From Dryocola sp. LX212 (lineage in GTDB: Bacteria; Pseudomonadota; Gammaproteobacteria; Enterobacterales; Enterobacteriaceae), in assembly GCA_041504365.1 (NCBI GenBank), contig CP167917.1:3100001-3164000 (forward strand): a stretch of 64,000 bases of DNA, read 5' to 3'. Position 1 is the first letter of the stretch. The number at the start of each line of letters is the position of its first letter. Shown here in pieces: positions 16,128-23,322 of the stretch. Below the pieces are notes generated by a model, which was not told where the DNA came from, did not search any database, and worked only from the letters and a program-made list of their open reading frames with translations. Position numbers and translations under genes: made by a program.

Positions 16128-19100
16128 ATGCATAACAAGCCGACCCCATCCGACCGTGCCGTTCTTGCCGACCTTCAGGAAGGGCAGCTATTTTCCTTCA
16201 GGGACGACGTGATTTTTACGCCGCTTATCAGGGAGGGCAGCATCGCCTGGATGAACGGCAGGCACCCCTTTTCAGACGGGGCCTTTATTCTGGCGACCGC
16301 CGTAAGCGATGAGGCGGAGCCGGATGCAACCCAGCTGCTAAAAAATGAGTTTGCGCTGCGCCCCTGGCTGTCCAGCGCCTGGGCCGTGAAGCCCGCAGCC
16401 TGCACACAGTATCGTGGCCGCTACGCCCTGGTTTATCCGACCTTTACCTTCGAACCGCTGACGCGGGTGACAGGCCAGCCGATGAGCTGTATCGCCAGCT
16501 TCCTGGCGCTGGCCATCCGCATTTGCCATCCGCTGCGCCTGATGCACATGCGCAATCTGATCCACGGCGACATCAAGCCCGGCCATATCTTTCTCAACGG
16601 CGACACCGCCTGCCGCCTGGCGGGCTTCGGCCTGACCACCGGCACTTCCAAAGAGCTGAAGCAGGCCCGGCTCGCTTTTTCCGGCGGCACACTCGCCTAT
16701 ATGTCACCGGAACATACCAACCGCACCCAGAGGCCGGTGGACAGCCGCAGCGATCTTTATAGCCTCGGTATTGTGCTGTATGAGCTGCTGACGGGCACGC
16801 TGCCCTTCGACTTAAGCGCCGGGGGGCTGGCGGAGTGGGCACATCATCACATCGCCTCTGAACCCCGCCCGCCGCATCTGGTCAGAAACATGATTCCGGT
16901 GATGCTTTCCGGCATCATTCTGCGCCTGCTAGCCAAGTCGCCGGATAACCGTTACCAGACCGTGGATGGCCTGGTGGCGGATTTGCGCCGCTGTCAGGCC
17001 ACGCTCGACGAAAACAGTGACATTCCGCCCTTCACGCCGGGCTTACAGGATCTCTCCCCCGAGGTGCATCTCACCGACACCCTCTACACCGCGCATCCGC
17101 AGTCAAGGGAGCTGGTAGTGGCCTTCGACGAGGTTAATCAAAGCGGTAATCATCTGCTGGCGGCGATCGGCGGCCCGTCCGGGATCGGTAAATCATCCCT
17201 GATTGCCTCAGCCCTGAAGGAGCTGCAGAACAGGCATGCTCTGATTGCCATAGGCAAGGTCGATCAGTTTTCCGCCTCGCTGCCGTACGGCGTGCTGACT
17301 TCAGCATTCCGTTCTCTGACGCTCACCCTGCTTGGCCTGCCCGCTGAAGAAGTTGCGGTATGGAAGATGCGCCTCTCGCGCGCCCTTGAAGGTTACGAAG
17401 GGCTGGCGATTAATCTTGTTCCCGAGCTGGGGCTGCTGATTGACGCGAAGTCCCACCGCGCGCCCGATCCGCTGTCGACGGATGCCAGGGCGAGGTTTGA
17501 TCATATGGTACTCAACCTGGTCACTACCTTCGCCTCGCCGGGCTGCCCGCTGATTCTGCTGATAGACGATCTGCACTGGATTGACACCGCCAGCCTCCAC
17601 GTCCTGACGTTTATCCTGAAAAACAGCGCCGCACTGCCGCTGCTGATGGTCATTGCCCTGCGGGACGGCGCGGTGCCCGACAAGAGCGGGGTTTCCGGCG
17701 CGCTGGGCCAGCTGTCCGACGCCGCTCAGCGGCTAAAAACGATTACCCCAGCCCCGTTGTCGGTAAAGGCCATCGCCCGCTGGCTGGCGGATGTTTTCCA
17801 GCAGCGCTCGGCGGACACCCCGGACCTTGCCAGACTGATCCATGAGAAAACAGGCGGTAATCCGCTCTTTTTACATGAGTTCCTCAAGCGTATCGTGGAG
17901 GACGGGCTGGTTACCCACAGCAAATATCAGGGGAAATGGCACTACGATCTGGCGGCGATCCAGGCGCGTCACTACACCGAAAACGTCGTCAGCCTGGTGC
18001 TTCAGCAGCTGGAGAAAATGCCGCCAGAGACCCGCAGGCTGCTGGGAAGCCTGGCCTGCCTGGGCAGCCGGGGCGAGCTGGATACCGTCAGCCGCGTGCT
18101 GAGCATTTCCGATGCCGATATTCGCTATCAGCTGCATCCTGCCGTCACGGCGCAGCTGCTCACCCTGTCGACAGACGGCTGGGCCTTTACCCACGACAAA
18201 GTGCAGGAGGCGGCTTTCGCCCTGCTGGACAGCGCCGAAAAAGGGCGTCTGCATCTCACCACCGCCAGCATTATGGCGGAGGCTTCCCGTCTGGCCGCCG
18301 GCAACGAAATGCTGTTCCGCGCCATCCACCACGTCTCGGCGGCGATAGACTGCGTTCAGCCGCCCGCGCAGCGCAAAATGTTCCGGGAGCTGAGCATACT
18401 GGCGGCGCAGCGGGCCAGGCGGACCGGCGATTACCTGTCGGCGCTGCGCTATCTGCAGACCGCAAGAGCGCTGGAGGGCGGCGCTGCCGAAAACTCTGCC
18501 GACCTGCGGCTGGAGCTGGAGGAAGCCGAGTGCGAGTTTTTACTCGGCAACCTGACCGCCGCCCGCCAGCTTTGCGACCGGCTGCTGGGCTCGCCCGGCG
18601 GGATGACGGAGAAAGTCGCCGCCGCCAACCTGCTGGCAGAAATTCACATGCGTCAGTCCGACAACCGGCTGGCGCTGGAAACCACGCTGTGCTGGCTGTC
18701 CGTTTCCGGGATTTCCATTGACCGCTATCCTGATTCCAGCGGGTGCAACGCGGCCTGGGAGGCGCTCAACAATCGCATCGGCGATAACCCGGCGGCGGTG
18801 TTTGCCCATCTGCCGGAGATGGCCCATCCAGAAACGGAAGCGGTGATGAACCTGCTCTCCAGCGCCAGCATTTTCGCCAGCTTCAGCAACCCGCACCTGC
18901 ACTTCATGCTGCTGTGCCAGATGCTGCACCTAACGCTCGAGCGCGGCGTAACCGGGGCTTCAACCTCGGCGATGGGCTGGTTTGGCGTGCTGATTGGCGA
19001 ACGCTACGCCGAGTACCGGCTGGGGTTCAGGTATGCCCAGCAGGCCCGTGAATTAGTCGAGCGCCACGGCTTCAGCGCCTGCGAAGCCAAAACCCTGCTG

Positions 19101-21737
19101 CCGCTTGACCAGCTCAGCGTCTGGACGCAGCCGCTCTCCTACACCACCGAATGCGCCAAAGCCTGCTTTACGACGGCGGTCACCCACGGCGATTTAACCA
19201 TCGCCTCGTTTGCCGCCTGCCATCAGGTGATCAACTTTTTAAGCCGTGGCGATCATCTGGACAACGTGCTGACCAGCATCGAGCGCGGGCTGGCCTTCGT
19301 GCGCAAAACCCAGTTCCAGGACGTGGAGCGCATCCTGCTGCTGCAGCGCCACTACGTGGATTACCTCAGAAAACCGCCGGTGGGCAGTTGGGAAAGCGCG
19401 GAAGCGCTGCCGGACAGCCTGCTGCCCGTGGCGCCCGAACAGGCTCCGCAGCAGATGTCGACGCTGATCTTCTGGTTCTGGCTGTACCGGGGCATGGCGC
19501 ACTTCATCTCCGGCAGCTACCCGCAGGCGCAGAACGCGCTGGACCAGGCTGCGTCTTTCGCCTGGTCGGCTCCCGGACACATCCACCAGCTGGATCTGCA
19601 CCTCTACAGCGCGCTGACCCTCACCGTTCAGCTGACGCCGGAAACCTTCACCGCGAAACACCGGCGCAGGCTGGAAACCCACCATCATAAGATTGCCCTC
19701 TGGGCGCGCATCAACCCCGAGACGTTTGCCGATAAAGAAGCGCTGGTCTACGCGGAGATTGTCCGTCTTGACGGCATGAACAGCATTGCTCTGGAGCAAT
19801 ACGAAAAAGCCGTGCAGCTCTCCCGTGAAGCGGGATTCAACCCTGGTAACGCGCTGGCGCACGAGCTTGCCGGGCGCTTTGCCTCAAGCTGCGGCTACCA
19901 CACGGCGGCGGACGCGCATTTTCGCGGCGCGATGGCGGCCTGGGGGCGTATCGGCGCGCAGGCGAAGGTGAACCAGCTCATGCTGGCTTATCCCCACCTG
20001 GTTTCCGTAGCACCAGCAACCCCCTACGACACCATCGCCTTCGCCCAGAACGAAGAGATTCGCGATCTGCAAAGCGTGATCAAAGCCTCCCGCGCCCTCT
20101 CGGAAGAAATTAATCTGGAACGCTTAATTGAGATCCTGATGACCATGCTGCTGGAGCGTGCTGGCGCGCAGCGCGGGCTGCTGATTCGAGTACTGGACAA
20201 CAACATTCCCCAGGTAGAAGCGAGCGCGCTGACCAGCAGCGACGGCGTGCGGGTGCGCATCCTCAGAAACATGCCGATGGCGAGCGATCTGCCGCTGTCG
20301 GTGCTGGCGGCGGTGATCCGTACCGGACAGGAGATCCGAACCGGAAAACCTGAAGAGTTCAGCCCCTTCTCGCAGGACCCTTACCTGGTGACCTCCGGCG
20401 CAGCCGTGCTGTGCGTGCCGATGTTTAAGGGCGCACGGCTGGTCGGCGTGCTCTACCTGGAAAATCGCCTGATGCCCGAGGTCTTTACCGCCGAGCACTC
20501 TAAGGTCGTCAGCCTGCTCGGGGCGCACGCCGCCGTCTCTCTTGAAACGGCCCGGCTGTATGCCGAGCTGCTGGAGGAGAACATCCAGCGCCGCCGGGTG
20601 GAAAAAGAGCTGCGCGCAAGCCAGACCTCGCTGATGCTCGGGGAGCAGATCAGCCATACCGGCAGCTGGCGCTGGGAGATTGAGCAGGATCTGATGTTTA
20701 TGTCCGAAGAATACGCCCGAATCCTCGGCCTGCCGGAGAAGCAGAAGATGATTTCAATGGCGGAATTTCTGACCTTCGTCCACCCGGACGACTATCTGCG
20801 CGTCAGCGAAGTGGTCACCGACGGAGTGCGTGACGGGCTGACGCTACACGCTGAATTCCGTATTATTAGTACTCAAGGAAGCGTGCGCTACATTCTGGGC
20901 ATCGGCAGTCCGGTAGGGGTGGGTACCGAGATCTACGAATATTACGGCACCATCACCGATATCACCACGCAGCGGCAGGCGGAAGATGCCGTCAGGGTGG
21001 CCCAGGCGGAGCTGGCCCGGGTATCCCGCGCGACCACAGTCGGCCAGCTAACCTCTTCCATCGCCCATGAAATTAATCAGCCGCTAATGTCGATCGTTTC
21101 AAACGCGGGGGCCAGCCTGCGCTGGCTGAATCACGACCCGATAAGGCACGACAATATTCGCGCCGGGCTTGAGGAAATCGTCGCGGAAGGCCAGCGCGCA
21201 GGGGAGATTATCCGCAGCATCCAGGCCTTGACGCGCAAGCGGGAGTCCCATTTCTGCCGCATCGATCTGCACTACCTGGTGCGCCATATTATGACGCTGT
21301 CGCGCAGCGAGATTGAACAAAGAAGAGTGGCCGTGGAGTACGAACTGAAGGCCGACAAGCGCTTTATTCTTGCCGACAGCGTGCAGATCCAGCAGGTGCT
21401 CATCAACCTGGTGATCAACGCCGTTGAAGCGATGGCCGATGTCTCTGACCGCCCCCGCACGCTGCGCATAGTCACCAATAACCCCGATGAAGGCTCGGTA
21501 GCCCTGCACGTTACGGACAACGGCACGGGCCTGCCTCCTGAAGTCCGGGAGCGAGTTTTTGACTCGTTTTACACCACTAAGGCGCAGGGCATGGGGATGG
21601 GGCTAACGATCAGCCATTCCATTATCGAACGGCACCACGGCAGGCTGACGGCGCAGCCGAACGCGCCCCACGGCAGCTGCTTCAGCTTCACGCTGCCGAC
21701 TGCGGAGCGTGAGGCTTTACCGGACGCTGTCCCTTAG
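16128..21737 (+). CDS. Ser/Thr kinase-like / AAA ATPase / GAF / PAS / histidine kinase
   Basis: This 1869-residue cytosolic sensor has, in order: a protein-kinase-like domain (about 1-285) with HGDIKPGH (H146, D148); an AAA module (about 325-620) with Walker A K355 and Walker B D480-D481; a long helical, TPR-like region (about 640-1290); GAF (about 1310-1480); PAS (about 1505-1620); and HisKA with H1647 (SIAHEINQPL) plus HATPase_c (DNG at 1797, GMGMGL). The expected DFG is GFG (166-168), so Ser/Thr kinase activity is doubtful; I recall the same change in relatives. No transmembrane segment or receiver is present. It is the last gene of the plus-strand operon. Confidence 0.88.
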   Translation: MHNKPTPSDRAVLADLQEGQLFSFRDDVIFTPLIREGSIAWMNGRHPFSDGAFILATAVSDEAEPDATQLLKNEFALRPWLSSAWAVKPAACTQYRGRYALVYPTFTFEPLTRVTGQPMSCIASFLALAIRICHPLRLMHMRNLIHGDIKPGHIFLNGDTACRLAGFGLTTGTSKELKQARLAFSGGTLAYMSPEHTNRTQRPVDSRSDLYSLGIVLYELLTGTLPFDLSAGGLAEWAHHHIASEPRPPHLVRNMIPVMLSGIILRLLAKSPDNRYQTVDGLVADLRRCQATLDENSDIPPFTPGLQDLSPEVHLTDTLYTAHPQSRELVVAFDEVNQSGNHLLAAIGGPSGIGKSSLIASALKELQNRHALIAIGKVDQFSASLPYGVLTSAFRSLTLTLLGLPAEEVAVWKMRLSRALEGYEGLAINLVPELGLLIDAKSHRAPDPLSTDARARFDHMVLNLVTTFASPGCPLILLIDDLHWIDTASLHVLTFILKNSAALPLLMVIALRDGAVPDKSGVSGALGQLSDAAQRLKTITPAPLSVKAIARWLADVFQQRSADTPDLARLIHEKTGGNPLFLHEFLKRIVEDGLVTHSKYQGKWHYDLAAIQARHYTENVVSLVLQQLEKMPPETRRLLGSLACLGSRGELDTVSRVLSISDADIRYQLHPAVTAQLLTLSTDGWAFTHDKVQEAAFALLDSAEKGRLHLTTASIMAEASRLAAGNEMLFRAIHHVSAAIDCVQPPAQRKMFRELSILAAQRARRTGDYLSALRYLQTARALEGGAAENSADLRLELEEAECEFLLGNLTAARQLCDRLLGSPGGMTEKVAAANLLAEIHMRQSDNRLALETTLCWLSVSGISIDRYPDSSGCNAAWEALNNRIGDNPAAVFAHLPEMAHPETEAVMNLLSSASIFASFSNPHLHFMLLCQMLHLTLERGVTGASTSAMGWFGVLIGERYAEYRLGFRYAQQARELVERHGFSACEAKTLLPLDQLSVWTQPLSYTTECAKACFTTAVTHGDLTIASFAACHQVINFLSRGDHLDNVLTSIERGLAFVRKTQFQDVERILLLQRHYVDYLRKPPVGSWESAEALPDSLLPVAPEQAPQQMSTLIFWFWLYRGMAHFISGSYPQAQNALDQAASFAWSAPGHIHQLDLHLYSALTLTVQLTPETFTAKHRRRLETHHHKIALWARINPETFADKEALVYAEIVRLDGMNSIALEQYEKAVQLSREAGFNPGNALAHELAGRFASSCGYHTAADAHFRGAMAAWGRIGAQAKVNQLMLAYPHLVSVAPATPYDTIAFAQNEEIRDLQSVIKASRALSEEINLERLIEILMTMLLERAGAQRGLLIRVLDNNIPQVEASALTSSDGVRVRILRNMPMASDLPLSVLAAVIRTGQEIRTGKPEEFSPFSQDPYLVTSGAAVLCVPMFKGARLVGVLYLENRLMPEVFTAEHSKVVSLLGAHAAVSLETARLYAELLEENIQRRRVEKELRASQTSLMLGEQISHTGSWRWEIEQDLMFMSEEYARILGLPEKQKMISMAEFLTFVHPDDYLRVSEVVTDGVRDGLTLHAEFRIISTQGSVRYILGIGSPVGVGTEIYEYYGTITDITTQRQAEDAVRVAQAELARVSRATTVGQLTSSIAHEINQPLMSIVSNAGASLRWLNHDPIRHDNIRAGLEEIVAEGQRAGEIIRSIQALTRKRESHFCRIDLHYLVRHIMTLSRSEIEQRRVAVEYELKADKRFILADSVQIQQVLINLVINAVEAMADVSDRPRTLRIVTNNPDEGSVALHVTDNGTGLPPEVRERVFDSFYTTKAQGMGMGLTISHSIIERHHGRLTAQPNAPHGSCFSFTLPTAEREALPDAVP

Positions 21738-21820
21738 TCACAACTCACCCGGATCATACGTCAGGGTGGGATCTGTTAATCTGCAGGTATTCCGTTCACC
21801 CGTTCGTCTGGCTATCTCTG

Positions 21821-22355
21821 CTGCCGTTGCGAACGGTGAACGTGCCAGGGGATTTACGCCAATCCCCTGGCGACCCCGGCGCCCGGCAAATAAATCGCCG
21901 CTGAAGCGGTAAACTCCGGTTTTTACCCAACATGCAGGGTCGTTCGCGATTCGTTCCAGACGATCGCTCTCTCACGTTGTTCCCGACAACGTGACCCTGC
22001 CTGAAGGGCAAAAACCGGAGCGATTTAAGCCGGGAACAGGGTGTCGCTTTAAGCCAGAAATAACATCAGAAATAGCATCGCTTTGAAACCTACAGCGACA
22101 CCGGAGATAAGTCATTCATGAAAGTTAAAGCGAGGGTGTTGGGTCCGGCTTAAATCGCCTCCATTTTTGGCTTCATGGCCGGGTCCAGCCGTCGGGAACG
22201 GCTGGAGGTTGTGATCGTCGGGAACGAATCGCAACCGACCCGGACAGGGAGCCAAAAATGGAGGTTTACCGCCGCAGGTGGCGATTTATTGCCGGGAGTC
22301 GGGAGCCCAGAGGGTGTGACGGCGAACACCCTCTGGACGTTCACCGGTTCGGCAG
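21821..22355. repeat. Inverted pair of structured palindromic repeats
   Basis: Two related units of about 215 bp face each other. The left has stem arms 21914-21928 and 22006-22020 (CTCCGGTTTTTACCC, one mismatch) plus a side hairpin CCAGGGGATT / AATCCCCTGG (21845-21870). The right has perfect arms 22158-22172 and 22250-22264 (CCTCCATTTTTGGCT) plus a side hairpin CCAGAGGGTGT / ACACCCTCTGG (22307-22336). Both contain GCGATTCGTTCC-GACGATC and GTTCCCGAC cores, in opposite orientation, and end in CTGCCG-GAACGGTGAACG-type sequence. Stems differ between copies yet stay paired, which implies selected structure. I do not recognise the family. The rest of the 21738-22455 gap holds nothing else. Confidence 0.8.
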
Positions 22356-22455
22356 CAACATATGCCACCTGACGCAGAGTGAACGGAACCTTCTCGATCT
22401 CGCCAGTAACTGTTTCAAAGATCTGTATAAGAAAGAGCGCAGGACGAGAGCTGAA

Positions 22456-23322
22456 CTATTCTTCGCAATAGCGCAAAAAACGCTGCAAAGCATTAGAGAT
22501 ATGCTTCTGACGATGATGAATGCGGTAAAGCGTGCGCTTAAGTTTGGGCAGTGGCACCTCAACCTCCACCAGCGAGCCGGTTTCCAGCTGCTCCTGGATG
22601 ACCCGGCGGGACAAACAGCTGATGCCAAGGCCGTGACGCACCGCATGTTTGATGGCCTCTGAATTGCCCAGCTCCATACCCAGATGGAACTGCGGCAAAT
22701 GGGAAAGCAGCAGGTAGTCGACGATTTCACGCGTGCCGGAGCCTTTCTCACGTAGGATCCACTGCTGGTTCGCCAGCGACTCGAGGGTCACAGGCTCTTT
22801 TAGCAATGGGGCTGAGGGTGCCGCAAAGACGACCAGCTCATCCTCAAGCCAGGGTTCGGTGACCAGTTCGGTCATATGGCTTGGGCCTTCGATAAGGCCG
22901 ATATCGACGCGGAAATCTGCCACTGCGTTGATCACGTCCTGGCTGTTACCAACGCTCATCTCCAGCGGCAACGCCGGAAAATCACGGCGATAGCGGGCGA
23001 TCATCTCCGGCAGAATGTAGTTGCCGATGGTGCTGCTGGCGTAGACGCGAATCGCACCGTTGGCCTCGCGGAAGAGCTGTTCTATTTCTCCGGCCTGCTC
23101 AAGCAGGCCCACCACGCGCGGGTAGAGCAGCCTTCCGTGCTCGTTCACCACCAGCCGCTTGCCCACGCGGTCAAACAGCTGAACGCCGAGCTGCCCTTCC
23201 AGATCTGCCAGCGCCGCGCTGACGGCGGACTGCGACAGGGCCAGCATCTGCGAGGCCTGGGTGGTTGAACCGCTTTTTAATACCTCAGCAAAAACTTCTA
23301 ACTGCCGCAGCGTGATGTGCAT
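22456..23322 (-). CDS. yeiE: LysR-type regulator YeiE
   Basis: This 288-residue LysR-type regulator has an N-terminal winged HTH ([39 protein letters not shown]) and a two-lobed effector domain. It is closely similar to E. coli YeiE (293 residues), which controls yeiH and has been linked to sulfite sensing and iron homeostasis. The ATG at 23322 (MHITLRQ) matches E. coli. It is divergent from yeiH across 103 bp that carry a perfect palindrome, its likely operator. Confidence 0.93.

Follow-up and report, generated by a model that had tools for sequence, protein, structure and literature searches.

Foldback transposons consist mostly of two long inverted arms, and the smaller repeats RU-1 (ERIC), RU-2 and RU-3 share with MITEs a non-coding, intergenic, inverted-repeat organization that is multicopy and foldable. 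The three RU families are 127, 168, and 103 bp long, respectively, and carry TA duplications according to the accessible text of their description (PMC2759123). TwoAYGGAY (RF01731, clan CL00106) appeared in a 2010 list of candidate RNAs (PMC2864571), and CsrA was subsequently put forward as its binding protein (PMC4333381); the accessible parts of the literature that names it report no functional test, and searches of it, some of them narrow in their terms, found no description of TwoAYGGAY as a paired mobile element.

The element analyzed here belongs to the genome of Dryocola sp. LX212 and lies within a 64,000-nucleotide stretch of contig CP167917.1 (the whole stretch is referred to as the window). 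It has the features listed above for the RU repeats and MITEs but is about 550–710 bp long and has two structured arms, and it resembles foldback transposons in being mostly two long inverted arms, although the arms in the window are just 70% alike and each has its own internal fold. With TwoAYGGAY it shares a long stem with two adjacent hairpins and GGA loops, whereas the loops of the window arms read UCGGGAA and UCUGGAA instead of AYGGAY (GGA itself is retained) and the arms occur in inverted pairs of a mobile element, a point on which the RF01731 literature is silent in its accessible parts. The element is very probably a mobile relative of TwoAYGGAY, its mobile nature and its family relationship being well supported, and the new observation is that relatives of this known candidate RNA occur as the halves of a dispersed mobile element.

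Extent and Organization of the Element

An alignment of 10 loci from the same genome delimits an element of 711 bp at positions 21727–22437 of the window, with a sharp change to unrelated flanks beyond both checked ends. The earlier note had described an inverted pair of structured units at 21821–22355, which is the right place but too narrow an extent. The left outer end (21727–21746, plus strand, CTGTCCCTTAGTCACAACTC) was located with the pattern CTGTCTCTTAGTCACAACTC, which occurs with up to two mismatches at six places in the genome and is present in 6 out of 149 genomes. The right outer end is inverted (22418–22437, minus strand, inner limit approximate) and reads CTCTTTCTTATACAGATCTT in the window copy and CTGTCTCTTATATAG... 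in better preserved copies. A scan of the open reading frame (ORF) context of the window copy (locus L017) found no long ORF in the element.

The left arm (type A, 21790–22038, plus strand) carries its GGA loops on the minus strand, and the right arm (type B, 22141–22388, minus strand) carries them on the plus strand. A covariance model built from 10 arms of this genome and of genomes G002 and G024 (model R1) matches a core in the left arm at 21874–22036 on the minus strand (191.1 bits, E = 3.2e-40) and in the right arm at 22142–22304 on the plus strand (153.5 bits, E = 6.2e-32), scores that are to be read with other copies from the same genome included in the model. In the left arm, the loops of hairpin B (GTCTGGAAC, 21953–21961) and hairpin A (GTCGGGAAC, 21979–21987) are given in minus-strand reading; in the right arm, the loops of hairpin A (22191–22199) and hairpin B (22217–22225) both read GTCGGGAAC on the plus strand. 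The arm folds place an outer hairpin C at 21844–21871 in the left arm (GCCAGGGGATT...AATCCCCTGGC, plus strand) and at 22307–22336 in the right arm (CCAGAGGGTGT...ACACCCTCTGG, plus strand). A central spacer (22037–22141) separates the two arm cores, and no sigma-70-like promoter site was found in 21600–22600, the spacer included.

The upstream kinase gene terminates inside the left end of the element, with its stop codon at 21735–21737 (plus strand). This gene (16128–21737, plus strand) encodes a hybrid protein of 1869 amino acids with protein kinase, AAA, GAF, PAS, and histidine kinase domains, and its two C-terminal residues (VP), a portion of the codon before them and the stop codon are supplied by the left end of the element.

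Copies, Empty Sites, and Outer Ends

The genome contains 16 matches to the element at 10 loci, as full or partial copies. Cedecea sulfonylureivorans, a close species whose counterpart of the upstream kinase is 97% identical, carries the window locus without the element (empty site L057). Compared with this site, which has CACCGGATG, the left flank of the window copy ends in TACCGGACG (21718–21726) and the right flank starts with CGCAGGACG (22438–22446), a degenerate target duplication with six out of nine positions equal. At locus L022 the element is inserted between CCAGTGCG and CCTGTGCG, an 8-bp duplication with one mismatch, and the sister genome G002 shows an unbroken terminator-like hairpin, TCTCCCCCTGTACGGGGGAGA, at the corresponding site (L222). 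Target duplications at L018 and L021 could not be defined, the flanks being too diverged, and L023 showed no clear duplication either. Several further copies are bordered, as judged by eye, by flanks resembling CCCTCTCCC on one side and GGGAGAGGG on the other, which suggests a preference for terminator-like hairpins as targets; the window copy itself sits outside one. Being multicopy, having empty sites (L057 and L222) and containing no transposase gene, the element is MITE-like. The suggestion in the earlier note of a structured RNA or DNA element that is possibly mobile is supported by covariation (see below), by dispersed copies, and by the lack of the element at this site in a sister species.

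Some loci contain the core without the outer ends (L018 in the same genome, and L029, L037, and L052 of G024), and over 566 bases the cores of L018 and of the window copy share 99.6% identity; core and outer ends have therefore probably been exchanged. A search of plasmids gave a single weak match, which lay in a record of chromosome size, and a search of phages gave none. At L025 (2002–2233, same genome) about 70 extra bases with small palindromes interrupt an arm at GATTCGTT; the same interruption at GATTCGTT is apparently present at L044 (G002), and L024 has the same junction.

The outer ends of the copies (CTGTCTCTTAG... and CTGTCTCTTATATAG...), like a repeat end in genome G106 (CTGTCTCTTATACACATCT), resemble the ends of Tn5/IS50. 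The element differs from Tn5/IS50 in that its cleanest duplication is 8 bp (L022) and in that no transposase domain of the Tn5 type was found among the same-genus genomes. The domain search was confined to the Tn5-type domain PF02281, which was found in none of six same-genus genomes and in 1 out of 30 genomes with a match below the cut-off. At four G106 and G175 loci, the starts of the ORFs were inspected by eye and none was obviously a transposase.

Fold and Covariation of the Two Arms

A repeat search identified two oppositely oriented units in the element, with inverted arms at 21914–21941/21993–22020 and 22158–22185/22237–22264, and the loop cores (GACGATC among them) and stem pairs quoted in the earlier note are present. 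The arms are alignable over about 250 bases counted inward from the element ends, and the consensus fold of 10 arms is a long stem of 55 pairs in total that bears two adjacent hairpins. When the two window arms are compared over these 55 model pairs, in an alignment fitted to the covariance model and hence biased toward pairing, 39 pairs are the same, 11 are changed on both sides and still paired, four are changed on one side, and one is broken in the right arm. Re-dealing the 3′ letters yields a mean of 0.5 two-sided paired changes, and none of 2000 re-dealings reaches 11, in agreement with the covariation within one locus that had been proposed. In alignments made from sequence only, changes on both sides occur in 22 out of 55 pairs of the consensus fold for the 10 arms and in 20 out of 31 pairs for 16 diverse arms. 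Paired changes are also seen by eye in hairpin C among the copies of the same genome. RNA folding of the arms gave z-scores of -8.1 and -8.3 against dinucleotide shuffles (200 each), and DNA folding of 21780–22400 gave a z-score of -19 (20 dinucleotide shuffles).

Relationship to TwoAYGGAY

The RF01731 model has no match in the window at the gathering threshold, none in 21740–22420 at E-values up to 5, and none in the genome at E = 0.01 under stricter filters. The full Rfam search of the window returned nothing but a tRNA and a ribosomal leader, both outside the element, and the relaxed search of 21740–22420 gave two chance-level matches. A profile seeded with the two window arms nonetheless retrieved 46 different units from the 41 loci supplied to it, one of which is the E. 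coli locus L125. RF01731 itself exceeds the gathering score in two relatives of the window arms, L030 and L038, with the matches on the opposite strand from the end-inward arm alignment; it matches L125 over its full length (E = 0.0027, below gathering) and also L041, L046, and L032, all below gathering.

Among 149 genomes of the family, R1 matches 28 at E = 0.01 (the own genome and same-genus genomes counted), which is beyond chance matches, and RF01731 matches 25 (12 of them over the cut-off) and none of 14 control genomes; nine genomes are matched by both models and 44 by either. In G102, R1 recovers all ten of the places matched by RF01731, each in the same orientation. A second covariance model built from 16 diverse arms (R2) gave 135 matches in 74 out of the 77 loci searched (L152 and other overlapping loci excluded), among them 26 out of 29 loci that had been fetched with RF01731. 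The matches of R1 in G102 and of R2 in the RF01731-fetched loci support homology of the window arms to RF01731 through intermediates, and these matches indicate that the arms belong to the same superfamily, as an outlying branch that is not filed as RF01731. The earlier note had called the element unrecognized, which holds insofar as the window arms fall outside the RF01731 model but not insofar as they are distantly related to a candidate RNA that is already catalogued; likewise, assignment to a known repeat family succeeds in part, the arms joining the RF01731 superfamily while not being matched by its model.

Arm Pairing, Lineages, and Gene Context

A total of 61 pairs of neighboring units less than 600 bp apart were found; their GGA strands point outward in 44, inward in 10, and the same way in seven, counts that, like the context counts below, are not independent (L132 equals L182, L020 and L036 appear orthologous, and the copies within the Dryocola sp. 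LX212 genome are near-identical). Nine out of ten inward pairs lie inside arrays (e.g., in G016) and one is isolated (L142). Among the RF01731 matches listed, which are independent of R1 and R2, pairs less than 600 bp apart include at least eight outward, no inward, and at least five same-way pairs; both same-way pairs of G114 have units on the opposite strand between them according to R2 (L144).

The left arm of the window is 83% identical to one arm of L052 (G024) and 77% identical to one arm of L160 (G099), compared with 70% for its own partner, and the corresponding values for the right arm against the second arms of L052 and L160 are 78% and 73%. The same arm-to-arm pattern was found for L164/L170 and L132/L140. 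Judged from these identities, the A and B arms are largely separate lineages that are recognizable across genera, with the exception of L037 (G024), which has two A-like arms. Since arms match their counterparts better than each other, the pair seems to travel as a unit.

The context of the elements was assessed from ORFs rather than annotation, and 9 out of 74 clusters without two neighboring ORFs were excluded. The remaining 65 clusters are flanked by convergent ORFs in 31 cases, tandem ORFs in 33 cases, and divergent ORFs in one case, and 64 out of 65 lie 3′ of at least one ORF. The elements avoid shared promoter regions, through target choice (terminators) or through selection. Single units beside tandem ORFs follow the sense of the genes in 9 out of 15 cases (by eye), and no clear preference of orientation is seen.

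GGA Loops and CsrA

A minimum of two GGA-containing hairpin loops was found in 47 out of 59 nonredundant units compared with 43 out of 590 shuffles, and at least one in 58 out of 59 units compared with 1 out of 59 reverse strands. These units, which were also used for the fold and pair tests, are 130–185 bases long (7 out of 135 were dropped, then near-identical ones), and the loop counts are partly circular in that R1 and R2 were trained on units with GGA loops, the RF01731-fetched loci being less affected. With a filter of 130–250 bases (131 out of 135 units kept, 61 nonredundant), the motif CANGGANG occurs in 49 out of 61 units and in none of 61 reverse strands; nine units, including arms of the Dryocola sp. 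LX212 genome, have UCGGGAA in its place and three have neither. The window arms lack CANGGANG and have loops UCGGGAA and UCUGGAA. The letters of the GGA are conserved at 0.93, 0.98, and 0.90 in one loop and 0.93, 0.74, and 0.89 in the other.

In the accessible parts of a SELEX study of CsrA, the consensus is RUACARGGAUGU, the core of which, CARGGAUG, fits CANGGANG, and in most of the selected hairpins no more than four pairs were contiguous, fewer than in the stems of the element (PMC7652899). The Dryocola sp. LX212 genome contains a csrA gene. Binding of the arms by CsrA is suggested by these loops as a tentative possibility, and it would be less certain for the loops in the window than for relatives of the AYGGAY type. 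The arms resemble CsrB, CsrC, RsmY, and RsmZ in that one strand forms hairpins whose loops contain GGA, and the element differs from these RNAs in that an arm mostly has two clear GGA hairpins, in being multicopy, and in that no promoter was found.

Selection on RNA or DNA and Alternative Explanations

Strand tests did not show selection on RNA. Folding energy was better on the GGA strand in 52 out of 59 units, but shuffles gave an equal asymmetry (-6.1 versus -5.7 kcal/mol), which is therefore explained by composition, and model-fitted alignments (G-U versus A-C 55 to 17, and 57 to 31 at less than 80% identity) were set aside because these alignments lean to the model. The stems resemble near-perfect Watson–Crick palindromes, a form that suits maintenance as DNA too. 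RF01731 might then be a DNA repeat, its stems being maintained in single-stranded or cruciform DNA through selection or repair, for example by way of a transposition or recombination enzyme that recognizes the hairpins and the GGA loop in DNA; we regard this as possible but not probable. G-U pairs are indeed few in the GGA-strand folds (63 out of 2404 standard pairs, 2.6%) compared with RNase P (324 out of 3299, 9.8%), and wobble pairs are, contrary to expectation, more common in the opposite-strand folds (128 out of 2254, 5.7%); the folds of the RNase P reverse strand, however, are also rich in wobble pairs (266 out of 2841, 9.4%), which makes the wobble percentage a weak test. For pairs predicted on both strands, G-U shows no clear excess over A-C (15 to 13 in six groups covering 51 out of 95 units, smaller groups being omitted) compared with 26 to 7 for RNase P by the same method (30 of the 40 genes found; Fisher p = 0.055), but these unbiased-pair counts are small and exclude G-U-rich pairs by design, and two other alignments (A2 and A3) favor G-U by 9 to 5 and 6 to 4. 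The conservation of the arms as long inverted repeats and the absence of a recognizable promoter in 21600–22600 also suit selection on DNA, whereas the GGA loops on one strand, of the ANGGAN type, fit a known RNA-binding protein, and no candidate for the enzyme was found.

A neutral selfish repeat with a functionless fold, in which stem covariation results from template switching (quasipalindrome correction), is rather unlikely. It would account for the nearly pure Watson–Crick stems and for the paired changes in hairpin C, but the GGA loop letters are well conserved beyond what stem correction provides (several stem columns are equally conserved), and the arms of one element have not been homogenized, the A and B lineages persisting across genera apart from the two A-like arms of L037. 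A locus-specific sRNA gene or a cis-regulatory RNA of the neighboring kinase or LysR gene is very improbable: the strong arm folds would suit it, but the arm unit recurs with differing surroundings, at 10 loci of the genome and in many other genomes, and the empty site in the sister species contradicts it.

A Possible Mode of Action

The explanation that we favor on balance is a non-autonomous, MITE-like foldback repeat with TwoAYGGAY-related arms that would be mobilized by a transposase in trans and would give rise to a CsrA-binding read-through RNA. The element consists of two long inverted arms, each a structured TwoAYGGAY-related unit of about 250 bases, around a short spacer; in this lineage the arm pair is bounded by Tn5-like outer ends, and its insertions lie downstream of genes, in many cases within terminator-like hairpins. 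It would have spread by means of a transposase supplied in trans, for which no candidate was found. As the GGA strands read outward, read-through transcription from either flank would place GGA loops on two adjacent hairpins of exactly one arm, and the arms being mirrored, each transcript would carry one GGA-loop arm and one UCC-loop arm. The RNA of the GGA arm may bind CsrA and could thereby act as a small decoy or as a site in a 3′ UTR.

A broader proposal, that a selfish foldback family serves as a mobile CsrA decoy across the Enterobacteriaceae which tunes or taxes this global regulator, TwoAYGGAY being half of the element and the mirrored arms ensuring that read-through RNA presents one pair of CsrA-type hairpins whatever the site and orientation of insertion, is speculative and probably goes too far. 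The occurrence of TwoAYGGAY relatives as halves of a mobile element explains the scatter of this family, provides many natural copies and empty sites for comparison, and opens the proposed CsrA binding to direct tests. Should CsrA bind, new post-transcriptional sites would arise from mobile repeats; otherwise, what was filed as an RNA under RF01731 may be a DNA repeat.

Related Units in Other Genomes

The window query matches 51 out of 5426 E. coli genomes; counts obtained with L125 as query are inflated by a BIME-like repeat in that query and were not used. L125 (558–811, E. coli MS8345, between asmA and yegH) is a single TwoAYGGAY-type unit between convergent genes that adjoins this BIME-like repeat, and many other E. 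coli seem to retain just part of the stretch. In G016, arrays of alternating units extend over about 3 kb (L032, L046, and L175) and resemble repeated paired elements. G106 contains a 157-bp repeat with Tn5-like ends at two places (L232 and L237), with CTGTCTCTTATACACATCT at one end. At L232 this repeat lies within a terminator-like hairpin with CCTTGGGG on both flanks, and at L237 its flanks are inverted copies of each other.
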